From positions 1-64,000 of the forward strand of contig JALVVR010000070.1 in the NCBI GenBank assembly GCA_027023305.1: 64,000 bases of DNA, written 5' to 3'. Every line of letters begins with the position of its first letter. Position 1 is the first letter of the stretch. The position numbers and the translations under genes are program-made. The notes under the pieces were generated by a model. It searched no databases. It worked only from the letters and a program-made list of their open reading frames with translations, and was not told the DNA's origin. Positions 14,698 to 37,947 of the stretch are shown here, one piece after another. This DNA is from Campylobacterales bacterium (GTDB lineage: Bacteria; Campylobacterota; Campylobacteria; Campylobacterales; QNZT01).

Positions 14698-16707
14698 TCA
14701 GAAACTCTCTTTCCACTCTTCAATCCTCACAGCACTATGATTATAATCTGGTTGTTTAGATAAGTTATCTAGTAAATCATCAGTTAAAAAGTTTATATCT
14801 CTATGTGATAATGGTATAAAAATTGTTTTTAGATTTATATCAGTTATAACAACTTCTGCTTTTAACTCTCCTCTTTTTGAAGAAACTTTTACCATATCCC
14901 CCTCTTTTAAGCCTAACTTATTTGCATCAGTACTGTTTATTTCAACAAACTCTAACTTTTTAAACTTTAGTAAACTATCAACTTTTGCACTCTTGCTTCC
15001 ACTATGCCATTGGTCTCTTGTTCTGCCTGTAAGAAGTATAAAAGGAAACTCCTTTGAAGCTTGTTCACTTAAGTTTTGATTTTCTACAAAAAATAGATTT
15101 GCTTTTTTGTTTTTGGTTAAAAAAGTACTGTTTTTAAAAAGATTTTTACCCCAAACAAATGGCTTTTCTTTTAACTTATCATAATTTGTCTCAAAGATAT
15201 TCAGATGCCTTTGAAAACTTAGTTTTGTCATCTTTTGATACTCTTCAAATACCTCTTTTGAACTTTTAAAACTAAACTCTTCTTCATATCCTAAATTCTG
15301 TCCAATTTTTGTAAAAATCTCCCAATCTTGTAAAATCCCATCTTTTGGATAGAGTGACTCTACTCTAGTTAGTGTTCTATCAAGGTTTACTTGTGTTCCC
15401 TCTTTTTGTCCAAAAGGGAGAGCGGGTAAAACTATGTGAGCATATTTTGAAGTTTCACTATCTTCATAAGCATTTATCTCTACCACAAGAGGGATTTTTG
15501 AAATAGCCTTTTGAACAAAGTTTCGATTTGGAAGATGATAAATCGGGTCAGTATGGCAGATTATCAAGATATCAATTTTGTCTTCATTAGCAGCTTCTAT
15601 CATCTCATATGCAGTTAAACCATTTTGCTTAGCTATATTTTCACTATTCCAAAACTCAGCTACTTTTTTACAGTTTTCCTCGTTAAAATCCAAGTGAACT
15701 GCCAAAGTAGTGCTAAGACCTCCAACCTCTCTACCTCCCATAGCATTTGGTTGCCCAGTTAGTGAAAAAGGACCACTTCCCTCTTTGTTTATTTGTCCAG
15801 TTATTATATGGAGATTGTTTATAGCAAGGTTTTTATCAACTCCTTGTGAGGACTGATTTATTCCCATAGTCCAAGCAGTGATGATGTTTTTACTCTCTTT
15901 AAAGAGTTTATAAAACTTTTCAAAACTATCTATCCCAAGTTCTGTATTTTCTAAAAGTTTAGTTCCATCAAGTTTTAAAATTTCTTCTTTGAAACTATCA
16001 AAGTTATTTGTATGATTTGATATAAAATCTTTATCAACACTATCATCTTTTATAAGTTTTAAAGCTAAAAGATTAAAAAAGTCTATATCTTTGTTTACTT
16101 TTATAGGAAGATAAATATCAGCGATTTTAGCACTAAGAGTAAATCTTGGGTCTATAACTACTACTTTTAAGCCTTTTTTTTGAGCTTTTTTTATCTTGTT
16201 AAAAAGTACTACATGAGACTCAGCAGGGTTTGCCCCAGTGAGAATAAGAAGATTTGCTTTATCTATATCATTTATACCAAGAGGTACATAATCTACCCCA
16301 AAAGATTTTTTATATCCTACAACTGCACTTGCCATACAAGTTCTACTGTTTGTATCACAGTTTGAAGTTCCTATAAAACCTTTTGCTAACTTATTTGCAA
16401 CATAATAATCCTCATTTAGCATCTGACCAGATAGATAAAATCCAACTCTTTCAGGGGCAGTTTTTTTGAGTTTAGAAGCAATTATATTGATAGCTTCATC
16501 ATAGTTGGAAGTTTTGAAGTTATCTTTTATACTCTCTCTTATCTTTACCTCTTTACATCTATCTATAAATATACTTTTTATTTGTGATAACCCCTTTGCA
16601 CAAGCTAACCCACTATTTGTAGGATAACTTTTTATAGGTTTTAACTTTTCATCCCTAAACTCAAACTTACAACCAACACCACAATAAGCACAAACTGTTT
16701 TACTCAT
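14698..16707 (-). CDS. nasA: assimilatory nitrate reductase catalytic subunit (NasA/NarB type)
   Basis: 669-residue molybdoenzyme that reduces nitrate to nitrite in the cytoplasm. The N-terminal 4Fe-4S site uses Cys6, Cys9, Cys13 and Cys36. The molybdenum ligand is Cys124 in TNSRTCMASAVVGY, the form seen in Nas/Nap enzymes rather than the aspartate of NarG. HSGSKSAKV and GLKEGDMVKVSSKRGELKAE belong to the C-terminal cofactor domain. There is no FAD/NADH subunit and no C-terminal [2Fe-2S] extension, so ferredoxin or flavodoxin is the likely donor. It overlaps nirA by 4 bases and is expressed with it. No Tat signal is present, which separates it from NapA. Confidence 0.92.
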   Translation of the reverse strand: MSKTVCAYCGVGCKFEFRDEKLKPIKSYPTNSGLACAKGLSQIKSIFIDRCKEVKIRESIKDNFKTSNYDEAINIIASKLKKTAPERVGFYLSGQMLNEDYYVANKLAKGFIGTSNCDTNSRTCMASAVVGYKKSFGVDYVPLGINDIDKANLLILTGANPAESHVVLFNKIKKAQKKGLKVVVIDPRFTLSAKIADIYLPIKVNKDIDFFNLLALKLIKDDSVDKDFISNHTNNFDSFKEEILKLDGTKLLENTELGIDSFEKFYKLFKESKNIITAWTMGINQSSQGVDKNLAINNLHIITGQINKEGSGPFSLTGQPNAMGGREVGGLSTTLAVHLDFNEENCKKVAEFWNSENIAKQNGLTAYEMIEAANEDKIDILIICHTDPIYHLPNRNFVQKAISKIPLVVEINAYEDSETSKYAHIVLPALPFGQKEGTQVNLDRTLTRVESLYPKDGILQDWEIFTKIGQNLGYEEEFSFKSSKEVFEEYQKMTKLSFQRHLNIFETNYDKLKEKPFVWGKNLFKNSTFLTKNKKANLFFVENQNLSEQASKEFPFILLTGRTRDQWHSGSKSAKVDSLLKFKKLEFVEINSTDANKLGLKEGDMVKVSSKRGELKAEVVITDINLKTIFIPLSHRDINFLTDDLLDNLSKQPDYNHSAVRIEEWKESF

Positions 16708-18587: not shown

Positions 18588-18638
18588 GTTAATCCCCTTA
18601 CTTTATAAGAAGTATTATATAATATTATAAACAAAAAA

Positions 18639-18657
18639 TATACAGTAAGACTGTATA
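18639..18657. promoter_or_regulatory. 19-bp palindromic operator candidate between nirA and the NarK-type gene
   Basis: TATACAGTAAGACTGTATA is a perfect 8-bp inverted repeat with a three-base spacer, almost in the middle of the 147-base divergent intergenic region. TATAAT-like stretches lie on both sides, so a dimeric regulator bound here could act on both promoters. It is not an FNR/CRP (TTGAT-N4-ATCAA) or NssR-like (TTAAC-N4-GTTAA) site. No regulator gene is adjacent. Confidence 0.55.
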
Positions 18658-18734
18658 AAAAATAATCAATAAACCTCTTGTCATATTTTATTATTTAGAT
18701 AATATTTTATTATAAATTATCGGAGGTTTTAACA

Positions 18735-20015
18735 ATGGCAAGTTTCAAAGAATTAAAAGGGCAGGGACATTTTCCTACACTTTTGGCAGCATTTTTATAT
18801 TTTGATTTTAGTTTTATGGTTTGGACAATGCTAGGTCCATTATCTACCGAAATAGCAGAATCTTTAGCAACTCATGGATTTATGATGAGTGCAGGGCAAA
18901 AAGCAACTTTGCTCTCTATTCCTATACTTTCAGGTGCAATTCTTAGGATACTTTTAGGTTTTGGAGTTGATAAGCTTGGAGCTAAAAAGACTGCTTTGAT
19001 GGCTCAAACAGTAGTTATATTAGTACTATTTTATGCTTTTTTTAGAGGAGAGAGTATAACTTACAGTGAGCTTTTAGTAGTAGCACTTGGACTTGGATTT
19101 GCAGGAGCTAGTTTTGCAGTAGCACTTCCTCAAGCTGGGCAGTGGTATCCACCTCGCCTTCAAGGAGTAGTTTTAGGTATAGCAGGAGCTGGAAATATCG
19201 GTGTTGTTTTAGACTTCTTATTTGCACCAAAAATAGCAGAGTATTGGGGATGGCAAGCAGTTTTCTTAGTAGGTGGAGTTTTATCAACTATCATCTTTAT
19301 AGCTTATACTTTTATGGCAAAAGATGCACCCTCTAATGTATATAAGCCAAATCCAAAAAAACTAAGAGATTATGGAAAACTTTTAAAAGACAAAGATACT
19401 TGGTGGTTTAACCTATTTTATGCGATAAGTTTTGGTGGTTTTGTAGGATTTGCAGGGTACATGAAAGTCTATCTTATGAATACTTATCAAGCAGATATGA
19501 GTGCTTTTGGATTAGAATATTTTAACGAGCCAAATGTAAAAGTAATTGCAGGGTATTTCGGAGCTTTGACTATCTTTGCTGGAGCAGTACTTAGACCAGT
19601 TGGTGGAGCAGTTGCAGATAAGATGGGTGGTGTAAAATCTCTATATATCTTTTTTGGAGCAGTAGCCCTACTAGCAGTTTTAAATGCTAGTGTTAAGTTA
19701 CCATTTGGTGTAGCGATACTAGTTCTTTTTCTTATCATGGCAAATCTTGGTATGGCAAATGGAGCAGTTTTTCAACTAGTACCACAAAGATTTGGTAAAG
19801 ATATAGGTATCATGACAGGTATCATAGGAGCAGCTGGAGGACTTGGTGGAACAGCTTTGATAAAAACTTTAGGATGGAGTAAAGGTGTTTTTGATGGATA
19901 TAGTGCAGGATTTTTTATATTTGCAGCAGTTGTTTTAGTTGCGATTTTAGGTATCAGTATGGTAAAAACTAGATGGAGAACTACTTGGGGACTACAAGCT
20001 GGTGGTAGGATATAA
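18735..20015 (+). CDS. narK: nitrate/nitrite transporter, MFS family NarK/NrtP type
   Basis: 426 residues with about twelve membrane segments. Glycine-rich nitrate-signature-like stretches occur in helix 5 (GLGFAGASFAVALPQAGQWYP) and helix 11 (GIIGAAGGLGGTAL), and the arginine in RILLGFGVDKLGAKK is the conserved loop 2-3 region. Takes up nitrate, possibly in exchange for nitrite. Divergent from nirA-nasA across a shared regulatory region, so it supplies nitrate for assimilation. Good ribosome binding site GGAGG before the ATG. Followed by an 11-bp hairpin. Confidence 0.92.
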   Translation: MASFKELKGQGHFPTLLAAFLYFDFSFMVWTMLGPLSTEIAESLATHGFMMSAGQKATLLSIPILSGAILRILLGFGVDKLGAKKTALMAQTVVILVLFYAFFRGESITYSELLVVALGLGFAGASFAVALPQAGQWYPPRLQGVVLGIAGAGNIGVVLDFLFAPKIAEYWGWQAVFLVGGVLSTIIFIAYTFMAKDAPSNVYKPNPKKLRDYGKLLKDKDTWWFNLFYAISFGGFVGFAGYMKVYLMNTYQADMSAFGLEYFNEPNVKVIAGYFGALTIFAGAVLRPVGGAVADKMGGVKSLYIFFGAVALLAVLNASVKLPFGVAILVLFLIMANLGMANGAVFQLVPQRFGKDIGIMTGIIGAAGGLGGTALIKTLGWSKGVFDGYSAGFFIFAAVVLVAILGISMVKTRWRTTWGLQAGGRI

Positions 20016-20427: not shown

Positions 20428-21081
20428 ATGGCAAAAATATTACTTTTAGAAGATGATGAGGTATTATCTGAAACACTGGTTGAAATGTTAAGAGAAGAGG
20501 GCTTTGAAGTGGTCTTAGTATCTGATGGTGAATCAGCACTAGATGCAACATTTACACAACATTTTGATATCTTTTTGTTAGATGTAAATGTTCCTTTGAT
20601 GGATGGTTTTTCCTTTCTAAAAGCTTTGAGGGAGAGTGAAAACAATACACCAGCTATCTATATCACTGCTATGAGTGATGTTGCTTCTCTTTCAAAAGGC
20701 TTTGAAGTGGGTGCTGATGACTATATAAAAAAGCCTTTTGATTTTGATGAACTTTTGATTCGTATCAATGCACTACTTCGAAAATCCTATCATACATATG
20801 CCTATAAACTTTATAGTGGGGATTTTTATTTTATTATCAAAAAAGATGAACTCTATCATGACAATCACTTTATCCCTCTCTCTCCGTATGAGTTGAAAAT
20901 CACTAGATTACTTTTTCAAAATCTTGATAAAACAGTACAAAAACAAGAATTTTTAGAATACCTTCATGAAGGATATGAGATGAGCGAAGGTGCTTTGCGA
21001 GTTCATATCAACAAGCTTCGTAAAGTGGGGCTTTCTATCCAAACAGTCAAAGGAGTGGGTTATCGTCTTGCATCATCATGA
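20428..21081 (+). CDS. OmpR-family response regulator
   Basis: 217 residues. The receiver domain has acidic residues Glu8-Asp9-Asp10, phosphorylation site Asp52 and the conserved Lys102 in YIKKPFD. The C-terminal winged helix (about 128-217, with YELKITRLL and INKLRKVGLSIQTVKGVGYRL) binds DNA. It opens a six-gene plus-strand cluster with its kinase and a complete exporter, so it most likely controls those genes. The ATG has no ribosome binding site and sits 11 bases after a TATTAT box, suggesting a very short leader. Confidence 0.93.
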   Translation: MAKILLLEDDEVLSETLVEMLREEGFEVVLVSDGESALDATFTQHFDIFLLDVNVPLMDGFSFLKALRESENNTPAIYITAMSDVASLSKGFEVGADDYIKKPFDFDELLIRINALLRKSYHTYAYKLYSGDFYFIIKKDELYHDNHFIPLSPYELKITRLLFQNLDKTVQKQEFLEYLHEGYEMSEGALRVHINKLRKVGLSIQTVKGVGYRLASS

Positions 21082-22126
21082 AAACAGAGCTTTTTTAAAA
21101 TTTTTCATTACCTATTTTATCAGTATAGCGATTTTGATAGTGGTAGCAGGGTTTTTCTATTTTGCACAGATGCGAAATCATCTTTTAAGGATGGAAGAGT
21201 TTTCTCTGATTGAGTATGCTAGACATTTGAAGATGAATCTTCCTTTAACTGAGTTTACAGGAGATTTTTCGCATATCTTTATAGATGAAACCAAACATAT
21301 AGATATCAAAAACTTCACCGTGGGTAAAAAAAGATTTTCAAAGTTAATCCCCCAAAAGTTTAATAAAGGCTATATCAAAGTTTCAAAATCAACTAAAACT
21401 TTTAACCAAAAAGTATCAACTCTAAAACATAAAATACAATTTTTACAACTTTTGTTGCTTTTACTTTTTGCATATATCAGTTATCGTCTTGCAAGAAATG
21501 CACTACAACCACTTAAAGAGAGTATCTCGACATTGGATAAATTTGCTAAAGATTTGATTCATGACTTAAATACACCCGTTACCTCAATAAATCTTAACAT
21601 GAGGGTTCTTGAAAAAAATCCCCAATGTAAAAACAATAAAGCACTTTTAAGGTTGAAAAAAAGTGTACAAAGTATCAGTGAGTTACATGAAAATCTTACG
21701 ATTCTTTTAGAAGAAGAGACATTTCAGTTTCAAGAACTTAATGTATGTAAAATTGTAGATGATGTTGTTCAAGTACAACAAACTATCTATCCAAATATCA
21801 AATTTGAAATCCAGTGTAATCAACTCAAAGCAAAACTCAATCCAAATGCCACTAAACAAATCCTTCAAAACATCATTTCCAATGCTTGCCAGTACAATAT
21901 CCAAAATGGCTATGTTAAAATCTACACAAACAATAAGTCGCTTTTTATAGAAAATAGTGGTAAAGGAATCAAAGAACCCGATAAAATCTTTAACCGTTCT
22001 TATAGTGAGGTTCATAGTAGTGGGATTGGTTTAGATATCGTTAAAAGACTTGGCTTTGCGATGGATATCTTGATCGAAGTTAAAGCTAAAAGAGACGGTA
22101 CTATTTTTATCTTAACGATGCCCTAA
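21068..22126 (+). CDS. sensor histidine kinase
   Basis: I place the start at TTG 21068, overlapping the regulator gene by 14 bases, giving 352 residues; the earlier in-frame ATG lies deep inside the regulator gene. Two membrane segments (about 9-33 and 116-137) enclose a short periplasmic sensor. The H-box is HDLNTPV and the ATPase domain has NIISNACQYN, ENSGKGI and SSGIGLDIVKR. Partner of the upstream OmpR-type regulator. The signal is unknown; position before an exporter suggests a toxic or envelope-active compound. Confidence 0.9.
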   Translation: MHHHENRAFLKFFITYFISIAILIVVAGFFYFAQMRNHLLRMEEFSLIEYARHLKMNLPLTEFTGDFSHIFIDETKHIDIKNFTVGKKRFSKLIPQKFNKGYIKVSKSTKTFNQKVSTLKHKIQFLQLLLLLLFAYISYRLARNALQPLKESISTLDKFAKDLIHDLNTPVTSINLNMRVLEKNPQCKNNKALLRLKKSVQSISELHENLTILLEEETFQFQELNVCKIVDDVVQVQQTIYPNIKFEIQCNQLKAKLNPNATKQILQNIISNACQYNIQNGYVKIYTNNKSLFIENSGKGIKEPDKIFNRSYSEVHSSGIGLDIVKRLGFAMDILIEVKAKRDGTIFILTMP

Positions 22127-36627: not shown

Positions 36628-37871
36628 ATCCAAAACTTTTAGAGTTAATCTTTTCTGCTTCATCTATTCAGAGGTGGAATGATTATCCTAGAATGGTGGA
36701 TTTAGTAGAACTTGATAAACAAGCTCATAAAATGATAATAGCATACCTTTTAGGTAAGATAGAATCAACTCAGGGTAAAAATATAAATTTTACAGCTCTT
36801 ATAGAGATAAGTATATTTGAGTTTTTAAGAAGAGTTGTTGTAACTGATATAAGACCTGATGTTTTTAGAGTGATACTAAAGCAGAAAAAAGCTGAGTTAA
36901 ATGAGTGGGTAATAGAACAGTTAGAGCCACTGATCAAAGATATAGAAGATGGAGAGTTTTTAACAAGATTTGAAAAGTTTTTAGAGGATGATACGGTTTA
37001 TAAAAAAGAGAGATTTATCCTAAAAGCTAGTTCATATCTTTCAACTAGATGGGAGTTTTCTATCATCTATCAAACAAGCCAATTTTTGAGTGATATAGAT
37101 ATCGTAAAAAGTGCAGTTGAAGAGGAAATTGAGGATTATTATGAACTTTTAGGAGTTAGGAAAATAGCTTTAAAACAAAAGCTTTCAAGATTTGTAGATT
37201 TGAGTGGGAGGCTTAGGTTTCAAAAAAGGTGGGCTCAAACTCCTAGGATTCCAGAGACTTCAGTTTTGGGACATATGCTTATAGTAGCAATTCTTAGTTA
37301 CTTTTACTCACTAGAGGTAAAAGCTTGTGATAAAAGACTTCAAAACAACTTTTTTTGCTCACTTTTTCATGACTTACCAGAAGCACTAACTAGAGATATA
37401 ATAACCCCTGTAAAATACTCTGTAAGTGGCTTAGATGAGATTATAAGTGATTATGAAGTGAAGATGATAAATGAAGAAGTTTTACCTCTTTTGCCATCAG
37501 ATATGGTTGATGAGTTTAAGTATTTGCTTGGTATTTATGATGGGGATAAAAAGGATGAGTTTTTAGATAAAACTTATCAAGATAGTATAAAGTTGGTAGA
37601 AGAAACATCACTTTATAATGAAGATAGATACAACACAATAGATGGCAAAGCTTTGAAGATGTGTGATAGATTTGCAGCTTTCATGGAAGCTAGTTTATCT
37701 ATCTATCATGGAGTAAAATCAAATGAACTTATAAATGGTAAAAAACAAATAGAAGAGAAGATAAAAAATAGTGGGAAAGTAAATAGTGTTGATTTTTCTA
37801 AATTGGTTGATATTATAAATGAGTATTATTTTAAAAATAAAAACTCCTCCCAAGATGGCTGCGGCACATAA
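36621..37871 (+). CDS. HD-domain phosphohydrolase
   Basis: 416 residues. The metal-binding HD pattern is complete: His in TSVLGHMLIVAILS, the HD pair in SLFHDLPEALTRDIITP and a distal Asp in KMCDRFAAF. The E-A-x-x-x-D-I-x-x-P block is typical of YfbR-like nucleotidases and their longer relatives, so nucleotide or (p)ppGpp-type substrates are possible. The first 200 residues are helical and unrecognised. Its last nine codons overlap the 3' end of the SRP RNA gene on the opposite strand, so the C-terminal residues (SSQDGCGT) are a by-product of that RNA sequence. Confidence 0.85.
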   Translation: MLNPKLLELIFSASSIQRWNDYPRMVDLVELDKQAHKMIIAYLLGKIESTQGKNINFTALIEISIFEFLRRVVVTDIRPDVFRVILKQKKAELNEWVIEQLEPLIKDIEDGEFLTRFEKFLEDDTVYKKERFILKASSYLSTRWEFSIIYQTSQFLSDIDIVKSAVEEEIEDYYELLGVRKIALKQKLSRFVDLSGRLRFQKRWAQTPRIPETSVLGHMLIVAILSYFYSLEVKACDKRLQNNFFCSLFHDLPEALTRDIITPVKYSVSGLDEIISDYEVKMINEEVLPLLPSDMVDEFKYLLGIYDGDKKDEFLDKTYQDSIKLVEETSLYNEDRYNTIDGKALKMCDRFAAFMEASLSIYHGVKSNELINGKKQIEEKIKNSGKVNSVDFSKLVDIINEYYFKNKNSSQDGCGT

Positions 37872-37947
37872 GTAGTTGAGGTGTGCTGCTGTGTTCCCAC
37901 CCTGACACGGTATCTCAAAAACCTATTGCACAGGTCTTGGAAGAAGC
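37844..37947 (-). ncRNA. ffs: signal recognition particle RNA, small bacterial (4.5S) type
   Basis: On the minus strand the sequence contains GTCAGG, a GTG-GGAA-CAC tetraloop hairpin and AGCAG in the exact order of the Ffh-binding domain IV of SRP RNA. The ends pair: CTTCCAAGA near the 5' end with TCTTGGGAG near the 3' end. About 104 nucleotides, with a T-rich stretch after the 3' end and TATAAT before the 5' end. It guides Ffh to signal sequences. Exact ends are estimated. Confidence 0.88.

Follow-up and report, generated by a model that had tools for sequence, protein, structure and literature searches.

A conserved 17-bp dyad between nirA and narK as a candidate activator site of a nitrogen regulon in Campylobacterota

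Introduction

NtcA of cyanobacteria is a Crp-family global activator of nitrogen-assimilation genes, and its site differs from the one described here. NssA, NssB, NssC and NssR are regulators of the Crp/Fnr type, and we know of no link between them and glnA or amtB. The available text of a review on respiration in Campylobacterota assigns NssA–C to nitrate, NO and N2O, while the terms NtrC and nitrogen assimilation are absent from that text (PMC6682613). In the available part of a comparative regulon study, the NtrC regulons of Pseudomonadota have a core of glnA and amtB, to which nirA and narK are added in alpha- and betaproteobacteria (PMC5343134). The same part states that the epsilonproteobacteria were omitted, orthologues of the target regulators being absent (PMC5343134), and the accessible sections of the Arcobacter butzleri genome paper report no homologues of NtrC or NtrB and no RpoN (PMC2147049). 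The NtrC box of Escherichia coli is given, in the excerpt at hand, as the 17-bp palindrome TGCACCAnnnTGGTGCA (PMC8743547). NtrC proteins of Rhodobacter capsulatus and Caulobacter without GAFTGA are reported, in the available portion of the source, to act on sigma70 promoters (PMC10274813). Our literature search, restricted to open-licence papers, found no described regulator of the kind proposed below, and an NtrC-like, sigma70-type nitrogen regulator of Campylobacterota is apparently undescribed so far.

Here we analysed a stretch of 64,000 nucleotides (the window) from a Campylobacterales bacterium and, specifically, a 17-bp dyad between its nirA and narK genes. The system would resemble NtcA in its global control of nitrogen assimilation, unlike NtcA in that the latter is a Crp-family protein. 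NssA, NssB, NssC and NssR belong to the same phylum and also concern nitrogen oxides, but they control respiratory and NO/N2O genes as far as the available text goes. The dyad has the length of the E. coli NtrC box and the same outer TG...CA as that box in the excerpt at hand (PMC8743547). Like the NtrC regulon of Pseudomonadota, it lies before glnA and amtB, and the candidate regulator carries a Fis-type helix-turn-helix (HTH). Unlike Pseudomonadota NtrC, the dyad core is AT-rich (TGMYTA-W5-TARKCA), the candidate regulator is without a receiver domain and GAFTGA, its PAS-like partner is without a recognised kinase domain, and promoters that look sigma70-like, with the site at about -52 of the predicted start, take the place of a distant sigma54 enhancer. 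The candidate shares the absence of GAFTGA in an NtrC-type nitrogen regulator with the R. capsulatus and Caulobacter proteins; according to the available portion of the source, those keep a phosphorylated receiver and the histidine kinase NtrB, neither of which is recognised here, and the phylum and the box differ as well.

Results

The nirA–narK intergenic region (18588–18734) is 147 bp long and 82% A+T. Protein-family matches back a ferredoxin-type nitrite reductase, a NasC/NapA-like molybdopterin reductase and NarK at this locus (Table 1), and the narB/nasC-like gene likely forms one operon with nirA. The 627-aa NirA extends about 110 residues past its NIR/SIR matches, which end at about residue 511; its relatives fall into two groups, matching either to about residue 620 (L022–L032) or only to about 520 (most of L033–L049). 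Rfam gave no small RNA or riboswitch at the intergenic region, the window's sole match being an SRP RNA elsewhere. The original prediction held that no regulator gene sits nearby, which is inexact in view of the OmpR-type response regulator and histidine kinase beyond narK; this pair adjoins TolC/MFP/ABC-like genes, and no linked homologue of the response regulator turned up in the relative loci searched.

Table 1 Coordinates of the features at the nirA–narK locus and of dyad sites elsewhere in the same genome
Feature	Position	Strand	Remarks
narB/nasC-like assimilatory nitrate reductase	14698-16707	-	overlaps nirA stop codon
nirA-like ferredoxin nitrite reductase, 627 aa	16704-18587	-	NF007125 E 3.2e-95 (below its cutoff), Pfam NIR_SIR; proposed target
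Predicted nirA -10, TATAAT	18614-18619	-	32 bases after dyad; second TATAAT at offset 22
Palindrome TATACAGTAAGACTGTATA = TATACAGT-AAG-ACTGTATA	18639-18657		8-bp arms perfect, 3-bp spacer
17-bp dyad TGTATA-AAAAA-TAATCA (TGNNTA-N5-TANNCA)	18652-18668	.	proposed operator/activator site common to nirA and narK
Possible narK -35, TTGTCA	18678-18683	+	
Predicted narK -10, TAATAT	18700-18705	+	31 bases after dyad; 4/6 to consensus, weak alone
narK nitrate/nitrite transporter	18735-20015	+	TIGR00886 E 6.8e-67 (below its cutoff); proposed target
OmpR-type response regulator and histidine kinase	20428-22126		413 bp beyond narK, then TolC/MFP/ABC-like genes
Bacterial small SRP RNA	37845-37942	minus	RF00169, 62 bits
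Dyad before glnA	C41:70964-70980		TIGR00653
Dyad before amtB	C69:7724-7740		TIGR00836
Dyad before OprD-like porin gene	C57:27608-27624		weak PF03573

The starting point was a perfect palindrome noted between nirA and narK, which is indeed present at exactly 18639–18657. It was also said to be centred in the region, and this does not hold: its centre is 18648 and that of the intergenic region 18661, to which the centre of the 17-bp dyad (18660) fits instead. Dinucleotide shuffling of the 147 bp (3000 replicates) produced a perfect palindrome with arms of at least 8 bp and a spacer of up to 12 bp in 26% of cases, one that matches or exceeds the composition-weighted improbability of the observed palindrome in 3.0%, and one whose arms each contain two or more G/C in 1.9%. 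Perfect palindromes with arms of at least 8 bp number 34 in the 64-kb window, and 19 of these have two or more G/C in each arm. A search of the bacterium's own genome (1.82 Mb) for the same arms, as proposed with the prediction, returned no second copy at 0–1 mismatch; with two mismatches allowed, two dissimilar sites appeared, and the reversed control outnumbered the pattern, 12 vs 3. One near match, TACAGTCAAATTGTA at C69:7678, was considered as a second site and is actually the -10 region of amtB (TACAAT). A scan of 398 genomes from the order found the exact palindrome in two, the own genome and G132, and the reversed control more often. Conservation among narK/nirA relatives, the test set in advance for the prediction, failed: none of the 14 orthologous intergenic regions carries the palindrome, and the best match agrees at 12 of 16 fixed positions. 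The genome of the same genus (G001, 65% complete) gave no match to nirA or narK, so that the same-genus comparison is uninformative. On the basis of these own-genome, order-wide and orthologue searches, the palindrome was rejected as a regulon operator.

The relatives point to a different element. A nirA search over 22 genomes of the family gave 16 matches at E 1e-60, and 31 loci were recovered from named public genomes, mostly from Sulfurovum, Nitratifractor and other Campylobacterota MAGs. The 14 relatives used have narK divergent from nirA and a readable intergenic region; one locus with narK cut off and non-divergent (L047) and duplicate copies of the window were left out. A motif search on these 14 regions, with the window excluded, yielded a symmetrical 19-bp element with the core TGATTAAAWTTTAATCA. 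Within the nirA–narK intergenic region of the window, the resulting matrix matches best at 18651–18669 (CTGTATAAAAAATAATCAA), a score that 0.34% of shuffles equal (P 0.0034); the reduced pattern TGNNTA-N5-TANNCA has P 0.0036 in shuffles of the 147 bp, and its two further matches in the window fall within genes. The reduced pattern is present in 12 of the 14 relatives' intergenic regions, against 0.08 expected. It was not found in the divergent narK/nirA regions of L032 and L034, which closely resemble each other and may use another site. Since the dyad shared by the relatives matches at 18652–18668, TGTATA in the right arm of the palindrome is a dyad half-site; the second half-site, TAATCA, is not part of the palindrome, whose left arm falls within the nirA promoter spacer. 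The palindrome is thus most plausibly a conserved half-site extended nearly by chance, visible because one half-site in this lineage reads TGTATA.

The promoter geometry of the dyad was analysed with -10-like hexamers defined as TATAAT-like sequences of at least 5/6 identity, with the first T, the second A and the last T fixed. For 101 oriented dyad–gene pairs of the family, 41 such hexamers lie at offsets 31–32, and no other single offset has more than 5. This mode replaced a spacing of 22 bp between the dyad and the -10, an idea gained by eye from several named loci. The own genome gives TATAAT at offset 32 for glnA, TACAAT at 31 for amtB and TAGACT at 32 for the porin gene, the porin and narK hexamers both being weak (4/6); near the predicted narK -10, other -10-like hexamers scoring 5/6 exist. 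With offsets of 32 for nirA and 31 for narK, the dyad centre is separated from the predicted -10 boxes by 41 and 40 bp, respectively. Accordingly, a single dyad would lie halfway between the divergent promoters, at about -52/-53 relative to the predicted starts near 18607 (nirA) and 18712 (narK). A site at about -52 does not correspond to the textbook class I or class II position of sigma70 promoters.

Next, we followed the dyad through the own genome, the family and the order. The pattern TGNNTAW5TANNCA has 8 sites in the own genome, a MAG with 5.3% contamination in which the dyad sites lie on different contigs, compared with 2 for the reversed control. Four sites are in promoters, those of glnA, amtB, the porin gene and narK/nirA, and four in coding sequence (L077, L079, L081 and L084). 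All four promoter sites read TGT[AT]TA-N5-TAATCA, a form noticed post hoc. The original prediction of an operator for an undescribed nitrogen regulator is therefore supported for the dyad, which precedes glnA and amtB and recurs at most narK/nirA relatives, and fails for the palindrome, which recurs at none. The strict pattern TGMYTAW5TARKCA has 73 sites in 21 of the 22 family genomes, against 0 for the reversed control; it has 0 sites in the own genome, and the window site fits the looser form only. The surroundings of all 73 sites were read as 74 instances, one site being counted twice, and the neighbours were classed by their similarity to own-genome proteins: glnA 16, amtB 13, narK 11, regulator 7, porin 4, narB 2, nirA 1 and none of these 21. 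The unclassed neighbours include, by eye, iron-sulphur and membrane oxidoreductase subunits and rpoN. In a second family (f4), amtB or glnA adjoins the dyad in 10 of 11 loci read (L185–L195). At the other 19 order loci (L166–L184), several of which stem from regulator-free genomes, amtB adjoins the dyad once (L172), the rest being without the regulon genes.

Additional dyad neighbours were observed. The dyad of G004 precedes rpoN, the gene of sigma54 (L092:1201–2417), which suggests a putative nitrogen control of sigma54 in that genome. Eight dyads (L068, L069, L089, L098, L099, L105, L111 and L127) lie about 79–115 bp before the gene of a membrane protein of about 190–205 aa, the one copy of which that was tested (L068) has no Pfam or NCBIfam match. 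Several of these loci show an FNR-like TTGAT-N4-ATCAA further down from the dyad, and a double control of the membrane-protein gene by the two sequences is possible.

The gene of an NtrC-derived protein of about 249 aa follows seven of the family dyads. Its counterpart in the own genome encodes about 246 aa (G000:C17:101737–102474, E 6.3e-81) and lies, together with a partner gene, directly after a gene named by eye as ftsH. The sigma54-activation family PF00158 matches the regulator of a relative (L071) with 22.2 bits (cutoff 20.2), over residues 5–48 only; the own copy alone has no Pfam match at E 0.01. The relatives' regulators contain NtrC-like segments, with a TIGR01818 match (E 1.3e-7) that falls well short of the cutoff, and the regulator profile gives partial matches to the structures of NtrC1 and FleQ. 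The C-terminus holds a Fis-type HTH (HTH_8, 25.3 bits in L114 against a cutoff of 22, and 16.8 in L071), and its profile matches Fis chains, NtrC-family structures and 4l4u. The GAFTGA string, which marks the loop that contacts sigma54, is absent from the own regulator and seven aligned relatives, and the N-terminal receiver domain of group 1 NtrC proteins (Response_reg) has no match in two relatives and the own copy, the protein beginning directly before the P-loop. Missing these two parts, the regulator does not count as a canonical NtrC. The gene after it encodes a protein of about 230 aa that is PAS-like in one relative (L056: PF00989 with 22.5 bits, cutoff 22.6) and gives no match to a kinase domain.

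Upstream reading of the regulator gene covered 24 of 30 loci. Twelve other family genomes were read, and 6 of them have a dyad before the gene, a count of autoregulation that is partly circular because the initial seven regulator sequences (A1) had been chosen for lying beside dyads; none was found upstream of the own-genome regulator gene. The regulator is present in 147 of 199 genomes, which together hold 355 strict dyads (control 20; mean 2.41), while the 52 regulator-free genomes hold 25 (control 7; mean 0.48). Dyad number is thus related to regulator presence with a Mann-Whitney P of 2e-12 over the 199 genomes, in statistics that ignore phylogeny. Three regulator-free genomes have at least two dyads (G015, G133 and G170; 92, 65 and 80% complete).

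Discussion

We consider it probable that the functional element of this region is the dyad at 18652–18668, acting as an activator site in a nitrogen regulon and most likely read by the ~246-aa NtrC-derived protein. Another reader of a genuine dyad would be a protein of the Crp/Fnr family, an NtcA-like nitrogen regulator. In one of the family's genera (L097, L100, L103, L108 and L112), such a gene and narK are divergent, with the dyad between them, and the own genome has a homologue at G000:C48:18417–19043, but this gene is unlinked to narK. Dyad number is also poorly predicted by this gene: 33 genomes with Crp/Fnr and without the NtrC-like gene average 0.52 dyads, and 18 with the opposite combination average 1.33, one of them (G053) having five. 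The TG-N13-CA spacing of the dyad further differs from the even-length sites of Crp, Fnr and NtcA, and we regard a Crp/Fnr reader as unlikely.

The palindrome could still act as operator for a local regulator confined to this lineage, with a single target, and overlap the dyad. Its arms are perfect and contain G/C, at a level seen in 1.9–3% of shuffles, and the position of its left arm in the nirA promoter spacer would suit an operator; against this stand its absence from 14 of 14 relatives, the lack of a second own-genome site at 0–1 mismatch and of a dedicated regulator gene beside it, and a right arm already accounted for by the dyad half-site, which make such an operator quite improbable. 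That the window dyad is a coincidence in AT-rich DNA, nirA and narK not being controlled through it, appears more doubtful still. The dyad-free relatives L032 and L034, the misfit of the window site to the strict family pattern and the loose matches within genes agree with chance, but not so a P of about 0.003 in 147 bp, a position that agrees with the relatives and a symmetrical spacing to both predicted -10 boxes; moreover, the half-site form TGT[AT]TA...TAATCA recurs at glnA, amtB and the porin gene of the own genome.

For the dyad as a site of the NtrC-derived protein, the sequences themselves provide the dyad, its conservation, its apparent targets, the spacing to predicted -10 boxes and the co-occurrence with the regulator gene. 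The ~246-aa protein would bind the dyad, and as a single activator site the dyad would serve both divergent promoters. The regulon would here comprise nirA-narB, narK, glnA, amtB and the porin gene, and control would be activation rather than repression. As the regulator keeps its Fis-type HTH and is without receiver and GAFTGA, it would act on sigma70-type promoters, presumably when nitrogen is short, and the PAS-like partner would set its activity. The regulator probably works like NtrC.

More broadly, we lean towards a widespread system of Campylobacterota in which an NtrC derivative devoid of receiver and GAFTGA, encoded together with a PAS-like partner that has no kinase domain, would activate the sigma70 promoters of glnA, amtB, narK, nirA and porin genes from one 17-bp box. 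Direct protein–protein or ligand control would replace the NtrB–NtrC phosphorelay, and some lineages of the order would have lost both the system and its boxes. Nitrogen sensing in Campylobacterota is hardly described; with the box, the gene pair and the target list defined, the question becomes testable in cultured relatives. If true, the system would reveal how nitrogen assimilation can still be run by an NtrC protein stripped of its phosphorylation and sigma54 parts.
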